The notes below the pieces were generated by a model. That model saw only the letters and a list, made by a program, of their open reading frames with translations. It did no database searches and was not told the DNA's origin. Below, piece after piece: positions 18,915 through 31,952 of a stretch of 64,000 nucleotides of DNA. The DNA comes from Deltaproteobacteria bacterium (GTDB lineage Bacteria > Desulfobacterota > Binatia > UBA9968). Where the stretch lies: contig JACQUW010000155.1 of assembly GCA_016210115.1 (NCBI GenBank), positions 1 through 64,000 on the forward strand, written 5' to 3'. Made by a program: the position numbers and the translations under genes. Position 1 is the stretch's first letter. The number at the start of each line of letters is the position of its first letter.

Positions 18915-20726
18915 CTACGACGTTTTGGCCTGTTGCCTGAACTGATGACAATCGCGGCATATCCCCTGAGGGTTGTGATCCTTTTTGTCCTGATGGCATC
19001 CCAGGCAGTTCTCCCTCTTTGCCGCCGTCCACTGATGAGGCATGTGGCATGCAGTGCAGTCGGCGGCAGCGTGCGCCGGCCTGAGATGAAGCTCGCCGCG
19101 GTTTGGATGGCAACTTAAGCAACTCTTCAACGGCTTTACGCTCTGCTCTTTTAGATGGCACTGATCACAAGAGAAAGCCATGGGAGCGTCTGCAGGGCGC
19201 AAATGACACGTGGAGCAGTCTCCCACGAGTCCACGGCCGCGCCAGTGACACTGGTTGCAACTGAGCGTGGCATGCTTTCCACGAAGCGGCCATGGATGGG
19301 CGAATCTCTCCGCGGCCGCGACCTCGGTAGGTCTCAAAACCGTGGTTTCCTGGGCGATGATGGTATGGCAGAGCTGACAGTCCTTTCGAATAACCTTTCC
19401 GTCCCGGCTGACGTGATTCCCTTCGTGACAGCGAAAACAACCCGGATATAGGGTGTGGCCGATATTATCGGGGTGTGTGCGCCAGTCCACCTTCATCTCG
19501 GGAAAGATGTTGGTCTGGTAGATCTTCTGGACCTCCGAAATCGCCTTTTTGATCGCTTCCCGCTTGGTAGGGTAGAGCTTGGGATAGTGAGTGACGTAAA
19601 AACTGTCGAGCGCGGTCGCGATGCCTTCCCTGGCTTTCTCCTTTGTCTGATACGTCTGGCTCAGAGCCCGCACGGCCTCTCTCTTGATGTAGGGCAGAGT
19701 TCTATCGATGAGGCCGGTCAGCAGGGCCAGGTCCACGGCGCCGTCCGGGTCGCGAAAAATATGGCTGGGCCGGTTGTGGCAATCCATGCAATCCATTCTT
19801 CGAATCTCAAGCTTTTTGATCTGCTCCGGCGTCATGGAAACGGAGCGATCGAAATACTCGCTGACCCTTCCCTGGCTGTCTTTCATTCTGACCCATGGGA
19901 TCTTTTGCCGTTTGGGATCGGTGGCGCCGTACCACACTTCATTGGCAATATTCATGTGCCAATGGATTCCGGCGGTGATGCCGGTAGTGGGACTTCCCCC
20001 TCCGGTTCGAATGAGGCTGCTGACCTGGCGCACGCTGTTCTTCTCGTCATGGCCGAAACGGGTCACCACCTTGAGCTGCGCGCCAAAAAATTTCTCCGGC
20101 CAATGGCACTGCTCGCAGGTTTCCTGCGCCGGGCGAAGACTCTCCACGGGAGTGGGAATCGGACGGGGATATTTTTTAAAGAGCACGGAATAAATCTGAT
20201 AGGCCCCGGCCAACTTTGATCGGACATACCAGCCGGCGCCCGGTCCCACGTGGCATTCGGCGCAGGTCACCCGCGCATGAGGCGAGGCCTGATAAGCCTT
20301 GTATTCCGGCTCCATCACCGAGTGACAGAGAGCGCCGCAAAACGTGACCGACTCTGTAAAATGGTAGGCCTGATAACTCACCGTCGATACCAGGCCAAGA
20401 AAAACAACGGAGGAGAAAACAACTAACAAAAGCACTCCGCGCGTCCTGCGTTCGTTGAGATCGATGCGTGGATAGGGAGGCAGACCCTCTCCCCTGGCCC
20501 GCCGGCGCCGCTCCAGAAAAGCTCCGAGGGGAATGAGCAAAATGCCCATCAGCAGAAGCGCCGGATAGATCATGTAGACGAAGATCCCGATATAAGGATT
20601 GCCTCTCCCCAAAATCGCTTCAATCACCAGTAAGAAAACGATGGCAAGCAGGCTTAACAGGCTCAATCCGAGGCCTACGAGGCTTACAGGATGGCGCAGC
20701 AAACTGCGTATGTGACCGTCAGGCAT
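18915..20726 (-). CDS. NapC/NirT-type multiheme c-type cytochrome with C-terminal multiheme extension (12 CXXCH + 1 CX3CH)
   Basis: N-terminal TM helices; FCGALCHSVMEPEYKAYQASPHARVTCAECH...; motifs counted by eye: CGALCH, CAECH, CEQCH, CMDCH, CFRCH, CQLCH, CNQCH, CSTCH, CDQCH, CLSCH, CTACH, CLGCH, CRDCH. Confidence 0.9.
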   Translation of the reverse strand: MPDGHIRSLLRHPVSLVGLGLSLLSLLAIVFLLVIEAILGRGNPYIGIFVYMIYPALLLMGILLIPLGAFLERRRRARGEGLPPYPRIDLNERRTRGVLLLVVFSSVVFLGLVSTVSYQAYHFTESVTFCGALCHSVMEPEYKAYQASPHARVTCAECHVGPGAGWYVRSKLAGAYQIYSVLFKKYPRPIPTPVESLRPAQETCEQCHWPEKFFGAQLKVVTRFGHDEKNSVRQVSSLIRTGGGSPTTGITAGIHWHMNIANEVWYGATDPKRQKIPWVRMKDSQGRVSEYFDRSVSMTPEQIKKLEIRRMDCMDCHNRPSHIFRDPDGAVDLALLTGLIDRTLPYIKREAVRALSQTYQTKEKAREGIATALDSFYVTHYPKLYPTKREAIKKAISEVQKIYQTNIFPEMKVDWRTHPDNIGHTLYPGCFRCHEGNHVSRDGKVIRKDCQLCHTIIAQETTVLRPTEVAAAERFAHPWPLRGKHATLSCNQCHWRGRGLVGDCSTCHLRPADAPMAFSCDQCHLKEQSVKPLKSCLSCHPNRGELHLRPAHAAADCTACHMPHQWTAAKRENCLGCHQDKKDHNPQGICRDCHQFRQQAKTS

Positions 20727-21246
20727 TACTCTCTTCTCCTCGTCCGAATTATATTAGTGCTTTTCCCTAACAACTAAGCACTTCTTCTCCGCTTTCCAGG
20801 GCATCTTCCGAAAGTTTTCTTCCGCCTCTCGCCTGATATTCTCACCGAAAAGCAAAAATGGAATCGGCCATAAGGAGCATAAAACAATGGCGCGATGTGA
20901 TGGCGGCAATTCGGTGAAACCGGTTTTACTGGAACCCCATAAGATGGGAGATCACCACCGTCATAAAAGATGGCGGCGCCCTCCCGGGAGGTGAGAACTG
21001 AGCTACTACCGAATCCCCCTACCCTTCATCCTTTTGCTCGGTCCCCTAATGCGAGCGGCGCACGTGATCTTTCTTCCATTGGTTGGTTTCGGCCTCTTCT
21101 CGGCTTTCTCGGCAAAAAGGTGTTGCCCTATCTCAGCAAGGCCGCCGCCTGCGAGGCGCCTGGCTGCTGTGCCGCCTGATACGCAGTGCGCATAAGCGAG
21201 GCATTAAAGCGCAAGGAAGTAAACGGATTTTTGGACCAGGCCGTCA

Positions 21247-21906
21247 TCAAGTAACGATTCCTTTCTGGAGAGCCAGCTTGACCAGCTCTGCCTTGTTATG
21301 GACGCCGAGTTTCTCGGCCATGTGTGCCCGGTGAGCCATCGCCGTCTTCACGCTGATCCCCAGGATCTCAGCGATCTCCTTGTTGGTCTTTCCTTCCGCA
21401 ACCAGCTTGAGTACTTGCTTCTCCCGGTCCGTCAGGCTTTCATACGGATCCTCCTGTTCCGCTGGCTTAATTCCACCGAGATAGCCTTCGATCACCGCGG
21501 GGGCAACTTCGGGGTGGAGAAAAGTTCCGCCGTGATAAACCGCTTTGATGGCGGCGACCAGTTCTCCCGCCGCAGCCCGCTTTAACACGTATCCCGAAAC
21601 TCCCTCCTTGAGAAAGCGAAAGAGATACTCTTTGTTCGCATACTGAGTTAAAATTAAAATCTTCACTTCAGGAGCAAGCTTCTTCAGCTCCAGCGTTGTT
21701 TCAAGCCCTCCCAGCCCTGGCATGGCGATATCCAGGAGAACAATATCCGGATGAACCTTTTTGACCTGCTCGATCGCCTCAGACCCGTCCGCTGCCTCTC
21801 CCACAACCTCAAGATCGTTGTGCGCGGCAAGAAGAGCCCTGATTCCCTCGCGAAAAAGGGCATGATCATCGACGATGAGAAGCCTTATCTTCCCCACAGC
21901 TCGCAT
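21247..21906 (-). CDS. NarL/LuxR-family response regulator
   Basis: IRLLIVDDHALFREGIRALLAAHNDLEVVGEAADG...DIVLLDIAMPGLGG...LTDREKQVLKLVAEGKTNKEIAEILGISVKTAMAHRAHMAEKL. Confidence 0.95.
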   Translation of the reverse strand: MRAVGKIRLLIVDDHALFREGIRALLAAHNDLEVVGEAADGSEAIEQVKKVHPDIVLLDIAMPGLGGLETTLELKKLAPEVKILILTQYANKEYLFRFLKEGVSGYVLKRAAAGELVAAIKAVYHGGTFLHPEVAPAVIEGYLGGIKPAEQEDPYESLTDREKQVLKLVAEGKTNKEIAEILGISVKTAMAHRAHMAEKLGVHNKAELVKLALQKGIVT

Positions 21907-21913
21907 TCACCTC

Positions 21914-23743
21914 TCAATGGCCGTCAACTGGAATCTTGATCGTCAGCCGCGTTCCCTTTCCCGGCTCCGAATCGACCCCAAAGGCGCCGTCGAAGAGCGT
22001 CGTCCGTTCCTTCATCCCAAGAAGTCCAAAACTCCCGTCCGTGGTTACTTTTGGATCAAAACCTTTCCCGTTATCCTCAACCTCGAGGCAGATATGTCTA
22101 TCGCCGAATTCAATTGCAATTGCAACGCCGTTAGCCTCTGCGTGTCTGGCGATATTGGAGATAGCCTCCTGGCCTATTCTGAAGAGCGTAGTCTCGATCT
22201 CCGGCTTTAACCTCCGCTCTGTGCCCAGAACCTTAAAGGTCAGATCGATTCCCAGCGGCTCGAGCCGGCTTTCCGCAACCCAACGGATAGCCGAAGTAAG
22301 ACCCAGATCATCTAGGACAGAAGGTCTGAGGTCCAAGATCAGGCGGTGGATGCTGTCAAGCGTGCGGTCGGCCATCGCCTTCATATGCGTGAGTTTTTTC
22401 TTCAGCTCTTCGGGAGCGCTTTCGGCCGTCGTCTCTATCGACAAAAGCAGGGCCGCTAGATCCTGGCTCGTCTCGTCATGAAGTTCGCGAGCGATTCTTT
22501 TCCGCTCCTCTTCCTGGACCCCGATCACCTTCTTCAAAAGCTCCCCGCGGATTTCCTCTTTTCGTTGAACTTCGCGATAGAGATCCTCTAACTCTCTCGT
22601 ACGCTCCTGAACTCTCTGCTCCAGATCCCGCTTCCCCTCAGCAATGATTTCCAATGAGGCTTTCAATGTGAGTCGCATCTGATCGAGTGATTGCGCAAGA
22701 AACCCGATCTCGTCTTCGCCTAATGGAGGAATGGGACCATCCAGGTCTCCCTTCGCAATCCGCTTCGCCGCCTCGGTCAAGGTTCTAACGGGCTTCGTTA
22801 CGCTCCCGCCCACTCCGCCGGCAAAAAGGAGCGCCACCAGGATAGTCGAAGACCCCAGAAGCAAGAAGCGTCTTTCCATAGCGAATGACGGAGCGAGAGC
22901 TTCTTTTTCCGCCTGCCGGATGCTCAGCCCCCAGGGGGCGTTTTTTAAGGGCGCAAACGCGATGACCTCTCGCTCACGCTCGGGGAAACCCTTCTGTTCG
23001 TGACACGTATGGCAAGCTCCCACTACAGACTTTTTATCGCGAATTAGGCCGGCCAGGAAACGGCCGTGATCGCTATCGATGAAAGCGCGGCCCGTTTTAG
23101 TTGAGGCGAGCACAATCCCGCGGCCGTCGACGAGTTCCAGATACGTCGTATCACCCAGCCGAATGGGGTGGAGGAGAGAATGAAAACGAGGATTTTGCGG
23201 GTCCAGTTCTCCTCCCACCGCTCCGCTGAGCTCGCCACGCGAGTCGCGAATCGGCACCACCGCAAAGATCCGTTTCTTCCCATCGATAATCAGGTTCGAC
23301 ACCTCCGGCCTGCCGACTTCGAGGACCTGCCGGATCGGGGGCAGCAACGAGAATTCCTCGTCCGTCCGTAAAGGGCGTTGCGGTTCAATCCAAACCATCT
23401 TCCCTGTTCGGTTAATGAGGAAAACTCCCTCGGTGAAAATCGATTGGAGATAGGCTTCGCGCAGCGCCGCGCGCAAAGCTTGCCCGGCGTCTCTTTCCAC
23501 GCCGAAACGGGCAAGCAGCGCCACCTCCTGTAGGAGCACCAGGTTTGATTTAAGCAGATAATCCAGATTATCCACCAGCGCCTGAACGAGATGCCGGCGT
23601 TCGTTTAACGCACGGTCGGAAAGTTCCTCGCTGCCCCAGTGATTGGAGACGAGGAGAATGCCCGCCAGAGCCACCATCCATAGTCCAACCAGAAAGATGA
23701 TGCGCCCCCAAAGATTTTTTCTAAGGAAACGCAACGGGTTCAT
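21914..23743 (-). CDS. Sensor histidine kinase (Cache-like periplasmic domain with CXXCH, HAMP, HisKA_3, HATPase_c)
   Basis: Two TM segments flank a sensor domain containing ACHTCHEQKG; HAMP KPVRTLTEAAKRIAKGDLDGPIP; ERKRIARELHDETSQDLAALL; DNGKGFDP...GSFGLLGMKERTTLFDGAFGVDSEPGKGTRL. Confidence 0.93.
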   Translation of the reverse strand: MNPLRFLRKNLWGRIIFLVGLWMVALAGILLVSNHWGSEELSDRALNERRHLVQALVDNLDYLLKSNLVLLQEVALLARFGVERDAGQALRAALREAYLQSIFTEGVFLINRTGKMVWIEPQRPLRTDEEFSLLPPIRQVLEVGRPEVSNLIIDGKKRIFAVVPIRDSRGELSGAVGGELDPQNPRFHSLLHPIRLGDTTYLELVDGRGIVLASTKTGRAFIDSDHGRFLAGLIRDKKSVVGACHTCHEQKGFPEREREVIAFAPLKNAPWGLSIRQAEKEALAPSFAMERRFLLLGSSTILVALLFAGGVGGSVTKPVRTLTEAAKRIAKGDLDGPIPPLGEDEIGFLAQSLDQMRLTLKASLEIIAEGKRDLEQRVQERTRELEDLYREVQRKEEIRGELLKKVIGVQEEERKRIARELHDETSQDLAALLLSIETTAESAPEELKKKLTHMKAMADRTLDSIHRLILDLRPSVLDDLGLTSAIRWVAESRLEPLGIDLTFKVLGTERRLKPEIETTLFRIGQEAISNIARHAEANGVAIAIEFGDRHICLEVEDNGKGFDPKVTTDGSFGLLGMKERTTLFDGAFGVDSEPGKGTRLTIKIPVDGH

Positions 23744-23770
23744 TTGACTTCCACTCCGGCCCCGGGAAAA

Positions 23771-24571
23771 TCAGCCACGATGACTCCGACGGGACGGAGT
23801 TTCGATCTCTTCCTGCTCCTCAATGTTCTCTTCTTGTTTTCCTTTGCGACCAGCGTTCTCGGCCCCTTCCCCGTCAAAGGAAATCTCCGTTTCCCCGCCA
23901 ATGAGACGCGCGTATTCCAACGGATGCTCCTTCTCCATCCTCTCTTCACTAATCTTACCGGTAAAAATGCTGGTATCGAACGGAAACACGTCGGGATTCA
24001 GGTGGGCGTTATAGATGTGCCAGATAATGACAATCAGAAACGCCAGCAACCCCTCACTCGAGTGCGCCACGTTCGCCGCCGGGACGACTTCACCGGGAAG
24101 AACACTCGTCCAGGCAATTGGGAAATAAAGAATAAACCCGGTGAGAATCATGATCGCTCCGCCCAAAATGAGACCCCAGTACTCGAACTTCTGCCGGTAT
24201 TCATAGCGATCAAACTGGGCCTGCTCCTCTGAAACGCCCAGGTAGTAGCGCAGTGTGATGATGGCGTCCCGGAAATCTTTCTTTGTCGGGATCATGTTCA
24301 GCTCGACCCGCTTCATCATGGCCAGTGACAGCACCACGGCCAGGTGTAAGGCCGCAATCACGGCGAACAGAATACCCGCGAGGCGGTGAAGCGAGCGCAC
24401 TCGATCAATACCGCCGAGATGAACAATAAGCCACTGGGCCCATCCCATATCGAAAAATTTCTGCGGGAAACCGGTCACGGCAAGAAGGAGAAACAGCACC
24501 ATAACCAGGAAATGCTCAAGCCGCTGTCTCGGGCTAAACCGCGTGAAAAATTCCTGCTTTGCCTTTTCCAT
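23771..24571 (-). CDS. Cytochrome b subunit (formate dehydrogenase gamma/cyt b561-like)
   Basis: RFSPRQRLEHFLVMVLFLLLAVTGFPQKF...LHRLAGILFAVIAALHLAVV...HSSEGLLAFLIVIIWHIYNAHLNPDVFPFDTSIFTGKISEERMEKEHPLEYARL. Confidence 0.85.
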   Translation of the reverse strand: MEKAKQEFFTRFSPRQRLEHFLVMVLFLLLAVTGFPQKFFDMGWAQWLIVHLGGIDRVRSLHRLAGILFAVIAALHLAVVLSLAMMKRVELNMIPTKKDFRDAIITLRYYLGVSEEQAQFDRYEYRQKFEYWGLILGGAIMILTGFILYFPIAWTSVLPGEVVPAANVAHSSEGLLAFLIVIIWHIYNAHLNPDVFPFDTSIFTGKISEERMEKEHPLEYARLIGGETEISFDGEGAENAGRKGKQEENIEEQEEIETPSRRSHRG

Positions 24572-24576
24572 CTCAA

Positions 24577-25656
24577 TTACCTGTTAACGACCACTCGCCA
24601 GATATGGAGAAGAATCTGCAGAACCAAGCCCGCAATGACGAAAGGAATAAAAATCTGGTAGAAGAGTTTGACGTAGTAGACGAGAGGCGCTTTTTGCGGG
24701 CTCGGCTCATAATGGGAGAGCCAGGCGGCCGGGAAGTTTTCAGTGGCCCCCGCGTGGCACTTGGCGCAAACTCTTACCAGGTTGGCCTTCATCACGGCGG
24801 ATCTTGGATCCTTCACCGAGAGTATATCGTGCACCCCATGGCAGTCCGTGCAAACGGCAGTGACGGCCGCAGGCGTGATCTGCTCCTTCCTGTGAGAAGA
24901 GGCCGTCATGCCGTGGAAGTCCTTGAGGTAAGTTTGAAGAACCATGGTCGAGAGACCGTATTTTTTCATCAGCTTCTCGTCCGTATGGCAGCGCGCGCAG
25001 AGTTCCGGTGTCCTCAACCGAAACGAAGCTGTCCTTGGATCCTCGATGTTGTGGGCCCGGTGGCAATCCGCACAGACCGGGGCGTCGGCGTTCCCCTCCT
25101 GCAGAAGAGCTTTGCCATGAACGCTTCGGGAATACTGCTGGTAAATTTCCTGATGGCATCGGGAACAGGTCTTTGAGATGCGAGACTTTGGAACACCCGG
25201 GCGCGCCACGTCGTGAGCGCCGTGGCAATCGACGCAGAGCGGAGCCTTCAGATTTCCGGCCGCGAGGATCACGTAGTGAACGCTGTCAAGCGTTTTTGTG
25301 TAATTGTCGAAGTGGCAGCCCTTGCAGATCTCATAATAGGCCAAAGTGAACTCGCGCAGGTTCTTGAACGATCTCGCCGGATGGGGGTAGGTGGTTACGT
25401 CAGAGTGGCAGTCGGTGCAGCGCAGTTTGTCTCCGTGTACGGAGCGGCCGAAGCGCTCCACGTCGACGAAAAGGGAGCGCTTCTCGCCGCTCGGCAGGAC
25501 GAGCTCCAACGCGCTGTTGCTGTGGCAAGTCAGGCAAAACTGCACGTCGGGCGAGACAGTCTCGGCAGCGGGCGAGCGCTGCGCCAGCAGAAGAAACATG
25601 CCCAAAACTCCTGCGGCAAAAAACCATAAAGTCGGCTGGTGTCCTGGCTTATTCAT
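24577..25656 (-). CDS. Nine-CXXCH multiheme c-type cytochrome with C-terminal TM
   Basis: CLTCH, CTDCH, CKGCH, CVDCH, CSRCH, CADCH, CARCH, CTDCH, CAKCH; signal peptide; C-terminal FYQIFIPFVIAGLVLQILLHIWRVVV. Confidence 0.9.
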   Translation of the reverse strand: MNKPGHQPTLWFFAAGVLGMFLLLAQRSPAAETVSPDVQFCLTCHSNSALELVLPSGEKRSLFVDVERFGRSVHGDKLRCTDCHSDVTTYPHPARSFKNLREFTLAYYEICKGCHFDNYTKTLDSVHYVILAAGNLKAPLCVDCHGAHDVARPGVPKSRISKTCSRCHQEIYQQYSRSVHGKALLQEGNADAPVCADCHRAHNIEDPRTASFRLRTPELCARCHTDEKLMKKYGLSTMVLQTYLKDFHGMTASSHRKEQITPAAVTAVCTDCHGVHDILSVKDPRSAVMKANLVRVCAKCHAGATENFPAAWLSHYEPSPQKAPLVYYVKLFYQIFIPFVIAGLVLQILLHIWRVVVNR

Positions 25657-26488
25657 GCAAAAATGCCAACAGCGTCAGACCAAAAAGAACAAAGCCCGTG
25701 ACGACCGCGCAGAAACCGATGATTCTACCGAAGTTCCTCAGCCAAAGAGGCGGCTGATCCGTTCGGATGCTCTCTAGGGTCCCTTCCTGCAGGAGCCTTT
25801 GATATTCTAAAGGGCGTTCTTCCTGGAGCTCCTTTTCACTCACTCTCCCGGTAAAGATAACGAGATCCATCGGAAATTTATCCGGACGGAAGTGGCTGTT
25901 AAAAAAATGAATCGTGAAGATAAACCAAACGGCCAATAGGGCTTCTTCGGCATGGATTATAAGGGCGATGTTGAACAACCATCCGGGAAGATGGCTGCCA
26001 AAAAAGGCGGAAAACCACATCACATAGCCGGAGATACCGATCACCGCCATGCCCCAAAAGACGGCCCAATAATCGAATTTTTCCCAGTAAGTGAAGCGAC
26101 CGAATTGCGGCTTTGCTCCCAATCCAAAAAACCAGCGAAAGTGCTGGAGCATTTCGAGAAAATCTCCAGGCTGGGGAACCATGGAGTCAGGTCCCCAGAG
26201 GATTCCGACTTCTCCCCTGATGAAGGCCCGGTAAAAGCCCGCGCCGAGATGAAGCACAAAGCAGAGCGTCATCAAAAAAGCAAAGGTCTTGTGAAAAAAA
26301 AGGACCGCGCCGAAGCCGCCCATGGCATTGGCCAGCTCGCTGGCCCAGGCCGATTGGTTGAACCTGAGCGGCATTCCCGAAGCAGCCAGCCCTAAGAAAC
26401 TTAACATCAACAGGCCGTGGAGCAGCCGGTGATAGAGGTTGAACCGCAGATAATATGCCGGCGTTTGGTCAAGAGCCTGGAGGTTCAT
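25649..26488 (-). CDS. Cytochrome b subunit (second copy)
   Basis: MNLQALDQTPAYYLRFNLYHRLLHGLLMLSFLGLAASGMPLRF...HKTFAFLMTLCFVLHLGAGF...FTIHFFNSHFRPDKFPMDLVIFTGRVSEKELQEERPLEYQRL. Confidence 0.85.
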   Translation of the reverse strand: MNLQALDQTPAYYLRFNLYHRLLHGLLMLSFLGLAASGMPLRFNQSAWASELANAMGGFGAVLFFHKTFAFLMTLCFVLHLGAGFYRAFIRGEVGILWGPDSMVPQPGDFLEMLQHFRWFFGLGAKPQFGRFTYWEKFDYWAVFWGMAVIGISGYVMWFSAFFGSHLPGWLFNIALIIHAEEALLAVWFIFTIHFFNSHFRPDKFPMDLVIFTGRVSEKELQEERPLEYQRLLQEGTLESIRTDQPPLWLRNFGRIIGFCAVVTGFVLFGLTLLAFLHE

Positions 26489-27734
26489 CCTTGTTTTCCT
26501 CTTCGTCGGAATCTTCGGTCGCCTGACGACGCTTTCTTCCGCCCCAAATCTCGATCGTTGAGCGCAGCAGCCAGAGGAACGTATGCAGGCCAAAGAAGGC
26601 AAAAACTCCGATCAAGAGAGTTTTCATGAAGATGGCGGCATAATAGAGGCCCGGGTTTCTCTCTTTATCGGTGAAATCCGCGTGGGGAGAGAACTGGGCA
26701 AAGTTGGCGTTCGCCTTGGGATGACACTTCTGACAGGTCGAGACCAGATTCTTGGGCGATATGGAAGAGAGAGGATCCGAAGCCCGAAGAATTCGATGAG
26801 AACCATGGCAATCGGAGCAGCGGGCCACACGGATAAACCCCAGAGTCGTTACCTGTCCATGGAAAGTGTCCCGGTAGGTCCGCAGCGACTCCCGATGGCA
26901 GGTTCCGCACTCTTTGACGATCTCCAATTTCCAGAGGGGTGTTTCGACGCGGCGAATCTCATGTGTCGTGTGGCAATCGACGCAAACAGGAGCCACGGCG
27001 CTTCCATCTTTTACCGCCTGGCCGTGAACGCTCCCGAAATACTCGGCGAGGACGCCTGCATGGCAAGTTCCACAGGTCGACGGCACGTTGGTGCGATTAA
27101 CCTTCGACTCCGGATCGCGCTTGGGCCTGATCTCGTGTGAGCCGTGGCAACTCGAGCAATGGGCAGCGACGAGGAGGCCGCTCTTCGACAAGGCCCGACC
27201 ATGAATTGAATCCATGTAAAGCTGATAGGCGTTCACCACCGGGATCCGATGCCGCTTGGCCAGCTCTGGATCTCCGTGGCACACACCGCAGGTGCGCGGA
27301 AGATTTAACGGGTAAACGCGCGAATCCGGGTTGTTGATGGGGAAGATATCGTGGGTCCCGTGACAATCATCGCAAGTGGCCGCGTCTTTGTCCCCTTTCG
27401 AGCTGGCCTTGCCATGGATGCTCTGGGCGTAAACTTTATACGGTTCGGCGTGACAAAGCCCACATTGGACACGTTTGACCTCGGGGCCGTGGGGAATTTC
27501 CTTGATACCACTGTGGCAGGAGAGACATCCGAGCGGCCCATGCACGGATCGGGAGAACCGGCCGGCGTCAACGTGAAGCGGAATGGTCTTGCCGTCGCGC
27601 TTTTTTTCTAGTCCGGGGGCTCCGTGGCAGGAAAGACAGATTTCGTTAGAGAGGGACTGGGCTGAATAGGACTCGGGAGCGAAAACAACCATCGCGAGCA
27701 ACATCCCAACCCATCCAACAACCCCCTGCTTCAT
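26469..27734 (-). CDS. Eleven-CXXCH multiheme c-type cytochrome with C-terminal TM
   Basis: CLSCH, CLSCH, CGLCH, CDDCH, CGVCH, CSSCH, CGTCH, CVDCH, CGTCH, CSDCH, CQKCH; signal peptide MKQGVVGWVGMLLAMVVFAPESYSA; start at 27734 preferred over track start 27830. Confidence 0.88.
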   Translation of the reverse strand: MKQGVVGWVGMLLAMVVFAPESYSAQSLSNEICLSCHGAPGLEKKRDGKTIPLHVDAGRFSRSVHGPLGCLSCHSGIKEIPHGPEVKRVQCGLCHAEPYKVYAQSIHGKASSKGDKDAATCDDCHGTHDIFPINNPDSRVYPLNLPRTCGVCHGDPELAKRHRIPVVNAYQLYMDSIHGRALSKSGLLVAAHCSSCHGSHEIRPKRDPESKVNRTNVPSTCGTCHAGVLAEYFGSVHGQAVKDGSAVAPVCVDCHTTHEIRRVETPLWKLEIVKECGTCHRESLRTYRDTFHGQVTTLGFIRVARCSDCHGSHRILRASDPLSSISPKNLVSTCQKCHPKANANFAQFSPHADFTDKERNPGLYYAAIFMKTLLIGVFAFFGLHTFLWLLRSTIEIWGGRKRRQATEDSDEEENKDEPPGS

Positions 27735-27863
27735 GACCAGCAATCTATAGCTCAATCGTCGGCTTTCTTTCCAGCTCCCATCGCCGCGAGCCGGGTGCCA
27801 CCCGCCGGTTCGCCAAAAGTGATCCGGCACGGCTCGCGGGATAAATCCGCCTTGCTAATGAAA

Positions 27864-29237
27864 TCAGGCGGCAGTCGCGTCCCGGGACGGCACTCCCTGC
27901 CGCGCGCGCCAGTTAAAAAATTCCCTTGCGATTTCAGGAAAAAGCGCGTAGGAGAGAACGTCCTCTTCGCTTCTCGCTACAGAGCCAATTTCTTTTCTTG
28001 CCATTTCCAGCCCGGGTTTCAGAAGATCCGCCGGCCGACAAGTGATCGGCTCCTTTTTTCCCAGTACCTTTTTCTTGATTTCGTCGCTGATCGGACCTGG
28101 CGGCTCGCCGTAAAGACCCATCACATAATTCCTGGTCTCCAAAGCCACGACCGAGTAGCGTTTACCCGTCATCACGTTAAGGGCCGCTTGCGAGCCGCAA
28201 ATTTGACTCGTCGGCGTGACCAAAGGAGGATACCCGAGATCCTTCCTCACCTCCGGCATCTCCGCCATGACCGCCTCCAGTTTGTCCTCTGCTTTTTGCT
28301 GCCGTAACTGCGCCACCAGATTTGACAGCATCCCGCCCGGAACTTGCGATATCAAAATATCGGTCTTCACCTGATTGTTGACGGGGCTGTCGAACTCCGC
28401 GTACTTGCGGCGGACAGCGTAAAAGTGCTGGGCGATCTCTCCCAGAAGCCCAAGGTCCAATCCAGTGTCCCGCGGGGTGCCTTTTAGCGCAGCCACAATC
28501 GACTCGGTCGTGGGTTGCGACGTTCCTTGTGATAACGGGGACAGCGCCGTGTCCAGAATATCTACCCCAGCCTCTATCGCCATCATGTAGCTCATCGGTG
28601 CCAACCCGGCCGTACAGTGAGAATGCAAATGCAACGGTAAAGCAACACGAGACTTTAAGGCTCTGACCAGCGCATAGGCCGCATAGGGAGCAAGCAGTCC
28701 GCCCATATCCTTTAAGCAAATCACATTAACTCCCATATCGGCCAATCGCTCCGCCAAACGCACAAAATATTCCAACGAATGCACGGGGCTGATTGTATAG
28801 CAGATGGCCCCCTCCACCGTCTTCCCCACCTTGCGCGCCGCCTCAATCGCGGCCTTCATATTGCGCGGGTCGTTCATCGCATCGAAAATGCGAAAAACAT
28901 CGATACCGCCGGCCGCGGCCCGGTCGATGAAGCGCTCAACGATATCATCGGGATAATTGTGATATCCGACGAGATTTTGGCCCCGCAGGAGCATCTGGAA
29001 ACGAGCGTTTGGCATTGCTTTTCGAAGCGTGCGCAGCCGTTCCCAAGGACACTCCTTGAGATAACGCAAGCACGAGTCAAAAGTTGCTCCACCCCACATT
29101 TCCAACGACCAATATCCGACCCGATTGAGCTTATCCGCTACGGGGATCATATCTTCCGTCCGCATCCGCGTCGCTAAGAGGGATTGATGGCCGTCGCGCA
29201 AAATCGTCTCCGTAACGTGAACTTTACCTTGATTCAT
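27864..29237 (-). CDS. Carboxyltransferase subunit (pyruvate carboxylase subunit B/oxaloacetate decarboxylase alpha-like), no biotinyl domain
   Basis: VTETILRDGHQSLLATRMRTEDMIPVADKLNRVGYWSLEMWGGATFDSCLRYLKECPWERLRTLRKAMPNARFQMLLRGQNLVGYHNYPDD. Confidence 0.9.
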   Translation of the reverse strand: MNQGKVHVTETILRDGHQSLLATRMRTEDMIPVADKLNRVGYWSLEMWGGATFDSCLRYLKECPWERLRTLRKAMPNARFQMLLRGQNLVGYHNYPDDIVERFIDRAAAGGIDVFRIFDAMNDPRNMKAAIEAARKVGKTVEGAICYTISPVHSLEYFVRLAERLADMGVNVICLKDMGGLLAPYAAYALVRALKSRVALPLHLHSHCTAGLAPMSYMMAIEAGVDILDTALSPLSQGTSQPTTESIVAALKGTPRDTGLDLGLLGEIAQHFYAVRRKYAEFDSPVNNQVKTDILISQVPGGMLSNLVAQLRQQKAEDKLEAVMAEMPEVRKDLGYPPLVTPTSQICGSQAALNVMTGKRYSVVALETRNYVMGLYGEPPGPISDEIKKKVLGKKEPITCRPADLLKPGLEMARKEIGSVARSEEDVLSYALFPEIAREFFNWRARQGVPSRDATAA

Positions 29238-29560
29238 CTCCTACTCCTTGACTCGGTGCTAAAAAGGATCCGGGGGCTTATCTTCCCAATCGCGCGAATT
29301 CATCAGCCACGGCAAGTGCCTGTACTAGAGTCACCGCTAATTACCTATTTGGGACGCATCCTTATGCATTTCTTATGCCACTGATGACAATTAGTAGTAA
29401 ATCTAATGCCAGCCACTGCGAATGCAGAAGTTTACTCACAATTAACTTCGCAGATAATAATGGAATTTATGAGTGACGAGCGAAACTCGGTAATGAAAAC
29501 GGGCCACCGCGGCATTAGACGCGCGTTTTAAGAGCTCCAAATATATTTACTAACATTGCG

Positions 29561-29603
29561 AAAAAAACCGGGCCGCCTGTTTCACGAATGGAAAAGGCGG
29601 CCC
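29561..29603 (-). terminator. Rho-independent terminator downstream of the cytochrome c7 gene (minus strand)
   Basis: Minus strand: GGGCCGCCT-loop-AGGCGGCCC stem followed by GG and TTTTTTT. Confidence 0.8.
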
Positions 29604-29674
29604 TGAGCTCCTAGAGGGAAATAAAAAGGGAGGCGGAAAATGATTCTTGTATCAAGGCAGAGTATTTCTCCGCC

Positions 29675-30013
29675 TTATTTTTTTGCATGGCACTTGGAAC
29701 AATCCTTAGCTTCCTTCGTCGAAAAGGCCTTGCCTCCGTTGTGGCATTTGCCGCAGAACTCGCCCTCATTCAAAACTTTCATCGTCATCTTGGGCGCGGC
29801 CACCTTTTTCATCTCAAAAATTTTCGTGTGGCAATCCGGGCACTGAAGCTTCTTATCGGTCACGTGGATTTTGTGACTAAAAGTAACCGGCCCCATCGGC
29901 TTCGTCTCTTCATACTTAAAATCTTTGGGAACCTGGCTCCATACTGGACCCGCCCCAACCCAAAAAATCGCCGCCAAAACGACAGCGCTTAGCGCAACAC
30001 ACAGTTTCCTCAT
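29675..30013 (-). CDS. Cytochrome c7/c3-like triheme protein
   Basis: Signal peptide; PVTFSHKIHVTDKKLQCPDCHTKIF...EFCGKCHNGGKAFSTKEAKDCSKCHAKK. Confidence 0.88.
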   Translation of the reverse strand: MRKLCVALSAVVLAAIFWVGAGPVWSQVPKDFKYEETKPMGPVTFSHKIHVTDKKLQCPDCHTKIFEMKKVAAPKMTMKVLNEGEFCGKCHNGGKAFSTKEAKDCSKCHAKK

Positions 30014-30321
30014 CTGCTGTCTTCTCCTTTCTTCCTAAACACTCTTTGTTCCACCCAATGGTTAGACGCTCGCGTTGGAAAAATATTCTGTAACACACAG
30101 CCTCCGCTCCATTCACCTTCCAGGCCTCTCGTCCGCTAACTTGATGATCTCTCTCGCGCATCACCTCCCCGAGCCGGACATGCCACAACAGGCTTCACCG
30201 TAATACTGGAGCCCGCGTCGCATTGAAGGCAAGAATAATTCATTTCGCTTCCGGCGTCCTGGACTGACGTACAAAACCGGTATCATGACAGCCGAAAAAC
30301 ACCAATCGGCACCGTTCTCCC

Positions 30322-30948
30322 TTACTTCTTTTTAAGATCGAGATCGATGGCCAGCACTTCACCTTCTCGCGCCATGTTGAACGACACAGGCTTGACTCCC
30401 AGGTCAGGGTGCCAGACTTCAAGCCGGTACTTCCCGGGAGGAATCCCGCCGATCTGATAATTTCCCCTTTTATCGGTAGCGGAGAAAAATGGATGCTCTT
30501 TTACAACGACAAAAGCCTCCATATTCGGATGAACGTTGCACAAAATCCTGACCACACCGGCCTTATCAAGGGTTACACTGCGAGTTTTTCCAGGCGCGTA
30601 GAGGCCCAGATCAAACTTTTTTGCCTCGGAAGCGGAAAAAACGTTATGCCAGCTCTTGTCGTTGTTCGGGAAATCCACAGTCGTCCCGACGATAACCGGA
30701 AGGACCCGGGGAATGAATTTCACGTCCCTCTGGTCAATGACGGCCTTTTTAGGCTTGGCACCCGCCGTTTGAGCTTTCAGATAGTCACCAGGCAACCCTT
30801 CCACCGATACAATCGCATCGGCTGTCGGTCTTCCCGATACAACGATCACTCCTTTGACGATTCCCGCTTTACGACTGTCCGCCCCAAAAACTATGGCGGG
30901 AAGAAGAGCTCCCATCAGAAAAAAAGGCCAAACTCGGTAGCGCCTCAT
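30322..30948 (-). CDS. Cupredoxin-like plus carboxypeptidase-regulatory-like domain protein
   Basis: VDFPNNDKSWHNVFSASEAKKFDLGLYAPGKTRSVTLDKAGVVRILCNVHPNMEAFVVV...NYQIGGIPPGKYRLEVWHPDLG; His plus C-X2-H-X2-M type-1 copper ligand pattern. Confidence 0.8.
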   Translation of the reverse strand: MRRYRVWPFFLMGALLPAIVFGADSRKAGIVKGVIVVSGRPTADAIVSVEGLPGDYLKAQTAGAKPKKAVIDQRDVKFIPRVLPVIVGTTVDFPNNDKSWHNVFSASEAKKFDLGLYAPGKTRSVTLDKAGVVRILCNVHPNMEAFVVVKEHPFFSATDKRGNYQIGGIPPGKYRLEVWHPDLGVKPVSFNMAREGEVLAIDLDLKKK

Positions 30949-31685
30949 TTCTTTACCCCCTTGGGAGCCGCAAGCGTAAAATCGACCTTCGAAATTGCCC
31001 CACCCTTGACCTCCACGGTTTTCTCCTGGGTTCCCAGCAATTCATGCCACAACTTCAAGCGATAATTCCCTGGAGGGATATCGGATATCTCATACTCGCC
31101 ATATACGTCGGTCACCGCATGGTAGGGGTGGTCGGTTACCATGATATAGGCGCTCATCCAGGGATGAACCTCACAGCGAATCTTAACCAGGCCGGCACCC
31201 ACGAGAGGTTTGCGGCTGACCTTTCCGGGATAAAGTCCGACATTGAACTGGGGCTGGCTATCCTGAAAATAAGCGTGAGCAGTATGAAGAATTGGATCGC
31301 TGTTCTTGACCACGACAAACTGACCCACACTGGCAGCCTGCACGTGTGGGACGAATCGACACTTCACGTTGTCGAGCTCATGAACGACCTCTTTCTCAAC
31401 CGGTTTACCCTTAGCGATGCCCTCCAGGATCACCACGCCATAACGGATTCCCTCACGAGGGCCAACGACGAGTGATTCGTTGGGCACGTTTTTGCAAACG
31501 TCCTTGAACTTGAGAACTTCCAATAAGGGAAGCTTTGGAGCCGGACCCTGAAGCTTGACAGTTCCACGTATGCTTCCCCCATTGCTTACAACTATCTCTT
31601 CATAGCCACTCGCGAAGGCGGGAAAAATTAGAACCAGCCAAACGGTCCATAGAAAACCAAAATTCCTCTTCATCTGCATATTCAT
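30945..31685 (-). CDS. Cupredoxin-like plus carboxypeptidase-regulatory-like domain protein (paralogue)
   Basis: VVVKNSDPILHTAHAYFQDSQPQFNVGLYPGKVSRKPLVGAGLVKIRCEVHPWMSAYIMV...EYEISDIPPGNYRLKLWHELLG; 4-bp overlap with 30322..30948. Confidence 0.8.
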   Translation of the reverse strand: MNMQMKRNFGFLWTVWLVLIFPAFASGYEEIVVSNGGSIRGTVKLQGPAPKLPLLEVLKFKDVCKNVPNESLVVGPREGIRYGVVILEGIAKGKPVEKEVVHELDNVKCRFVPHVQAASVGQFVVVKNSDPILHTAHAYFQDSQPQFNVGLYPGKVSRKPLVGAGLVKIRCEVHPWMSAYIMVTDHPYHAVTDVYGEYEISDIPPGNYRLKLWHELLGTQEKTVEVKGGAISKVDFTLAAPKGVKK

Positions 31686-31952
31686 AGGCGAAAATTCGGA
31701 CCTCCATAAAGCAAGCCCCATGCCAGGAGACCTTACCTGCTATTGTCGGCAGTGAGGCAACCTGTGATTCTAATAATTGGGAATGGCACATAAGTATCAT
31801 AGCAAAGGTGAGAAGAAAACCGTCAGATCAAGAGATCGGCTTTACAGGCTGTCCGGCTTGGCGAGTAACTCATTGCTGCCGTCATCGATGATTTAATTCC
31901 TTTCCAGTGGCACAGTTCGTGCGTGTTATTATGGAAAATCAGGAGGAATGGT

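Follow-up and report, generated by a model that had tools for sequence, protein, structure and literature searches.

The stretch examined here, called the window below, comprises positions 1-64,000 of contig JACQUW010000155.1 from the Deltaproteobacteria bacterium assembly GCA_016210115.1 (Desulfobacterota; Binatia; UBA9968). Its locus at 18915-31721, which we re-read from the raw sequence, groups multiheme cytochromes c, cytochromes b, cupredoxins and a two-component system that, judged by their motifs and architecture, make up a quinone-to-periplasm electron hub. We consider it probable that this hub forms the parts of an extracellular electron transfer chain that lie in the inner membrane and the periplasm, and that it carries its own redox switch. 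The genes of the locus, the TM141 remnant excepted, lie on the minus strand and are transcribed in the order cupA, cupB, c7, a pyruvate carboxylase B-like gene, mhc1, cytb1, mhc2, cytb2, HK (histidine kinase), RR (response regulator) and a 13-motif cytochrome:

30945..31721, minus strand: cupA, exported cupredoxin-like protein with CEVHPWM and a C-terminal carboxypeptidase-regulatory-like domain; orthologues in the genomes G014 (72%) and G025 (73%) lie beside the same system
30322..30948, minus strand: cupB, plastocyanin-like cupredoxin with WHN...CNVHPNM and a C-terminal CarboxypepD_reg-like domain; PF00127, 27.5 bits (cut-off 21.2)
29675..30013, minus strand: c7, periplasmic triheme cytochrome c7; PF14522; TIGR04257, 74.2 (cut-off 40)
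27864..29237, minus strand: pyruvate carboxylase B / oxaloacetate decarboxylase alpha-like gene, between c7 and mhc1, read from the sequence
26469..27830, minus strand: mhc1, 11-heme c cytochrome with a C-terminal membrane anchor
25649..26602, minus strand: cytb1, FdnI/HydC-type cytochrome b; PF01292, 44.9 bits; the true start is probably an ATG near 26491
24577..25656, minus strand: mhc2, 9-heme c cytochrome with a C-terminal membrane anchor
23771..24571, minus strand: cytb2, FdnI-type diheme cytochrome b; PF01292, 49.4 bits
21914..23743, minus strand: HK, sensor histidine kinase with dCache_1 bearing CHTCH (residues 244-248), HAMP, HisKA_3 and HATPase
23000..23014, minus strand: CHTCH codons of HK, predicted covalent heme c site
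21247..21906, minus strand: RR, NarL-type response regulator; PF00072 and PF00196
20924..21156, plus strand: TM141 remnant, frameshifted small membrane protein (tblastn E-value 1.4e-14, two frames with a stop)
18915..20726, minus strand: ImcH-like quinol dehydrogenase (predicted) with three N-terminal transmembrane (TM) helices, one CX3CH and 12 CX2CH

Between mhc1 (27830) and the regulator (21247), neighboring genes either overlap or leave gaps of a few to about 30 bases, as would be expected for a single transcript. The four cytochromes hold 13, 9, 11 and 3 heme motifs, the first of these figures being 12 CX2CH plus one CX3CH, and this recount reproduces the approximately 36 hemes announced by a previous sequence-only reading of the same DNA, which had overlooked the CHTCH of the kinase (residue 244), the 37th motif of the locus. 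Since shuffled residues yield about 0.001 CXXCH per 100 amino acids and no further frame of the window has at least two heme motifs, a chance origin of these motifs is excluded. Likewise borne out are the two cytochrome b-like subunits encoded downstream of anchored multiheme proteins, with PF01292 matches for the former and a C-terminal hydrophobic helix in both mhc1 and mhc2, and the two cupredoxin-like proteins, the CxxHxxM motif being read in cupA and cupB and the latter resembling plastocyanin in the PDB (E-value 1.7e-4). The repeats of 3ov0, a multi-domain c7 cytochrome, are similar to the triheme c7 (E-value 3.4e-47). An NrfA- or octaheme-type reductase in the locus was ruled out, as the cytochromes contain no CXXCK and the window holds no other multiheme frame.

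The ImcH-like protein and the two b/c units

According to a 2018 survey, homologues of ImcH possess three N-terminal TM helices, a CX3CH motif beside the TM domain, a NapC/NirT-like core and 5-9 CX2CH motifs (PMC6295460); family members are further characterized by 31-49% identity to Geobacter ImcH. The product of 18915-20726 follows this description, with hydrophobic stretches at residues 12-44, 44-73 and 94-120, a CX3CH (CGALCH) at residue 130 directly after the third of them, and a NapC/NirT-like core recognized by PF03264 (34.8 bits, cut-off 24.1) and by the NrfH structure 2j7a (E-value 2e-4). The NapC/NirT protein of the earlier reading is accordingly revised to an ImcH-like one, an assignment made by architecture against the published family description. 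As in Geobacter ImcH, an inner-membrane quinol dehydrogenase, the core is followed by a C-terminal string of hemes; the difference resides in the 12 CX2CH of the window protein, above the 5-9 reported. Because the orthologue of locus L012 (Dadabacteria, 48% identical) has six CX2CH, the extra hemes are a C-terminal extension.

Each FdnI-type cytochrome b gene directly follows a multiheme gene (mhc1-cytb1 and mhc2-cytb2), and alignment indicates that cytb2 keeps all four heme-ligating His residues of FdnI, namely His 18, 57, 155 and 169. While FdnI, the gamma subunit of formate dehydrogenase-N, serves a molybdoenzyme, the partner of cytb2 is a multiheme c protein. Considering gene plan and motifs, both b/c pairs follow the CbcL plan in split form. 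Indeed, the bc-type quinone oxidoreductases CbcL/MtrH/MtoC and CbcBA also place an anchored multiheme c arm next to an FdnI/HydC-type diheme b protein, with conserved b-heme His residues in the membrane part of the CbcL/MtrH/MtoC proteins. CbcL is a single polypeptide, its c part preceding a multi-TM b part, whereas b and c are separate genes in the window, an arrangement which fits the gene plan of CbcBA. Furthermore, the window differs from both CbcL and CbcBA in that two units stand one after the other and a two-component system is encoded alongside them.

Searching GTDB genomes with cytb2 retrieved 66 related loci, all from metagenome-assembled genomes of about ten phyla (Acidobacteriota, Rokubacteria, Chloroflexota, Nitrospirota, Binatota, Dadabacteria, Planctomycetota, Armatimonadota, Deferribacterota, Myxococcota and others), with genes in GC-rich loci called by tblastn-guided frames. 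The four-gene unit mhc2-cytb2-HK-RR recurs in most of them; most of the complete loci have a multiheme gene, typically with 9 hemes (7-13 in some phyla), then cytb2, with kinase and regulator after or flanking. This conservation agrees with the dedicated NarL-type two-component system proposed earlier. We found no published mhc-cytb-HK-RR unit in the open-licence literature. The sequence-only reading would have fallen had the b and c subunits failed to co-occur elsewhere, whereas they co-occur widely and are even fused in one polypeptide in L012 (in the cytb1 clade), L092, L039 and L044; the AlphaFold2 model of the fused L092 protein (pLDDT 69) was too weak for a fold search. In the tree, cytb1 and cytb2 fall into distinct clades, and either clade includes members of several phyla (support of 98/96 for the cytb1 clade). 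The window therefore combines two old paralogous units, in line with the two paralogous b/c modules previously suggested, and a recent tandem duplication of the b/c unit is ruled out by the age and phyletic spread of both clades.

Two variants of the unit were observed. In L012 (10784-12407), L033, L036, L038 and L040, a gene for an M56-like membrane peptidase-like protein (HEIAHL) and a partner of about 184 amino acids lie between cytb2 and the kinase; this gene pair is found in several phyla, and in Nitrospirota it stands upstream of the unit. The Nitrospirota/Deferribacterota version (L056, L058, L059, L067, L069 and L071) begins with tetraheme c, iron-sulfur (FeS) and NrfD genes, followed by a 13-heme mhc2, cytb2 and usually the kinase and regulator.

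The double-Cache sensor kinase

The CHTCH of HK lies in the extracytoplasmic dCache domain. The AlphaFold2 model of the kinase (pLDDT 88.8) predicts a fold that matches dCache ligand-binding domains such as those of PctA and Mlp24, with the CHxCH motif positioned in the membrane-proximal Cache module, on the loop that leads into the last two strands. The C, H, C and H of this motif are invariant in 26 kinases from several phyla, and a DH pair (rarely DY or EH) about 18 residues upstream is a candidate for the distal ligand. A 2026 preprint presents heme-bearing Cache domains as the first of their kind to hold a cofactor covalently, restricted to the single-Cache DUF3365/Tll0287 family (PMC12889525). 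These sCache_heme domains (as in GSU0582 and GSU0935) share with HK an extracytoplasmic Cache whose CXXCH lies in a loop preceding the final strands; HK differs by its double Cache (PF02743) and by the invariant inner His of its CHxCH. Among the aligned heme-type sensors, dCache_1 (PF02743) matches 25 of 26 and PF11845, the DUF3365/Tll0287 profile, none (0/26), which rules out membership of the kinase in sCache_heme. As no heme-bearing double Cache was found in the open-licence literature, HK is likely a heme c double-Cache sensor not yet described.

From its motif and position, HK would be a covalent-heme sensor of redox state or of nitric oxide (NO), and we favor the former, given that the kinase gene lies with those of a redox complex. 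That the heme would detect NO instead is possible but the less likely of the two: sCache_heme domains fused to signalling modules do bind NO (PMC12889525), but the family is a different one, as its profile matches none of our sensors, and in most loci the kinase accompanies the redox complex. We regard as quite improbable a CHxCH devoid of heme and serving as a metal site or disulfide, for although model confidence is lowest in the loop that follows it, the motif is exactly that of heme attachment, sits on the exported side of the membrane and has its four residues invariant across several phyla.

On the other hand, 18 of the 44 compared sensors are without the heme motif, which counts against a heme-based redox switch. 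On the sensor tree the presence of the motif is clustered and at least five changes are needed, with the heme-less lineages mostly long-branched, a pattern consistent with an ancient motif that has undergone several losses. The farthest-reaching form of the redox proposal, which we hold to be evenly balanced, is that these kinases constitute an undescribed double-Cache heme c sensor family, independent of sCache_heme and hard-wired in several phyla to a CbcL-like quinone/cytochrome complex, reporting how reduced or oxidized the periplasmic cytochrome pool is and so allowing the cell to choose among its quinol dehydrogenases.

The acceptor side and the direction of electron flow

The window encodes no terminal enzyme, and in this respect the sequence-only reading was right; its further statement that the acceptor could not be named is too strict, since an MtrAB conduit occurs in a relative and in the same assembly. 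In G025, a genome of the same family (L010 being taken as the same contig), a cluster of about 30 kb with about 79 heme motifs runs cupA-cupB-helix-turn-helix gene-MtrA (10 hemes)-MtrB-pentaheme-ActB-FeS-ActC-two tetrahemes-nonaheme-Rieske-cytochrome b, and continues with c7-mhc1-cytb1-mhc2-cytb2-HK-RR-ImcH-octaheme-FeS-NrfD and two small cytochromes c. Every part of the window locus except the pyruvate carboxylase-like gene is present in it. The block from MtrA to cytochrome b, absent between cupB and c7 in the window, is carried in this assembly by contigs C43 and C85, which adjoin because one ActC gene is cut by their facing ends (residues 1-216 and 227-442). A DmsE/MtrA decaheme protein (257.5, curated cut-off 192.2) and an MtrB/PioB porin (262.1, cut-off 240.05) are both on C43. 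An MtrAB/PioAB conduit with genes resembling alternative complex III and Rieske/b genes thus accompanies the hub, contiguous with it in G025 and outside the window in its own genome. C85 (L074) and C43 (L075) carry, besides MtrAB, an ActB-like molybdoprotein, tetraheme class I cytochromes with MWNH repeats, a nonaheme, a Rieske protein and a cytochrome b.

Comparable gene orders occur elsewhere in relatives. G016 has MtrB, the ActB/FeS/ActC block, bc genes, a fused b/c protein and ImcH in a row, and G014, of the same family and without MtrB, has an OmcA/MtrC decaheme gene (438.9, cut-off 209.3; L094, 6608-8599) directly before mhc1-cytb1-ImcH. Among 35 genomes of the order compared by Fisher's test with shared ancestry ignored, ImcH is present in all 8 with the module and in 1 of the 27 others (3.8e-7), and MtrB in 4/8 versus 3/27 (p = 0.033), including all three genomes with a close mhc2 orthologue (G000, G025 and G031). 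The gene order of MtrAB or OmcA/MtrC in relatives, the block on C43 and C85 and this co-occurrence together point to extracellular electron transfer, and the quinone-coupled conduit proposed by the sequence-only reading is supported. Three findings tell against extracellular electron transfer: MtrB is found in only half of the module genomes, so that the hub may feed other sinks; the window belongs to a metagenome-assembled genome with 8.9% contamination; and C43 and C85 are not joined to C83 in the assembly.

Two alternatives, both of which we consider unlikely, concern the partners of the hub. Electrons could flow inward as in MtoC, with Fe(II), Mn(II) or another outside donor oxidized and quinone reduced. 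Homologues of CbcL/MtoC/MtrH occur in reducers and oxidizers alike (PMC6295460), and the genome of the window has an MtrAB pair with no OmcA/MtrC above the cut-off, as well as several terminal oxidases; but quinol oxidation is the only role in which ImcH has been implicated to date (PMC6295460), and no RuBisCO was found in this genome. Alternatively, the hub could serve a soluble periplasmic reductase or oxidase of nitrogen, sulfur or metalloid compounds, the association with MtrAB being incidental. The half of the order's module genomes without MtrB would agree with this, as would the ActB-, FeS- and NrfD-type genes near the system in relatives, which resemble subunits of such enzymes, and the tetraheme c, FeS and NrfD genes that accompany the unit instead in Nitrospirota and Deferribacterota. 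The locus itself, however, has no catalytic reductase, and in G025, G016 and G014 the hub genes directly adjoin those of MtrAB or OmcA/MtrC.

With its seven COX1 matches and no RuBisCO, the organism would best fit a facultative heterotroph using outside acceptors when oxygen is short. For outward electron transfer, we infer the following route. Membrane quinol would be oxidized by the ImcH-like 13-heme quinol dehydrogenase and by the two cytochrome b / multiheme c complexes, the split CbcL-like units in which two membrane b hemes would hand electrons to the anchored periplasmic arm with its 9 or 11 hemes. Transport across the periplasm to the MtrA-MtrB conduit encoded elsewhere in the genome would fall to the triheme c7 and perhaps also to the cupredoxins. 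The kinase would sense the periplasmic state through the heme c of its membrane-proximal Cache module and, via the NarL-type regulator, set the expression of its co-encoded b/c unit.

In Geobacter, ImcH, CbcL and CbcBA are used at successively lower acceptor potentials (PMC12307469), while the part that its numerous kinases play in extracellular respiration is poorly understood (PMC5585712). The probable extracellular electron transfer hub of the window, of the ImcH/CbcL type, has its own conserved two-component system, whose kinase is likely a heme c double-Cache sensor new to the literature. Many uncultured lineages encode ImcH-like and CbcL-like enzymes side by side, one of them with a kinase that probably bears heme, which makes the kinase a direct candidate redox sensor and the locus a marker of extracellular electron transfer for lineages without cultures. 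Such a sensor could inform the cell of the electron acceptor at hand, and would extend the heme-bearing Cache sensors beyond the single family described in 2026.

The sequence-only reading had described a locus of minus-strand heme and copper genes, which is accurate except for the pyruvate carboxylase B-like gene inside the stretch, probably outside the electron hub; in relatives it sits elsewhere near the system, at the start of L008 and at the end of L104, after a citrate synthase-like gene. TM141, a remnant in the window, accompanies and flanks the module in 33 loci and is intact in L010 and L008.

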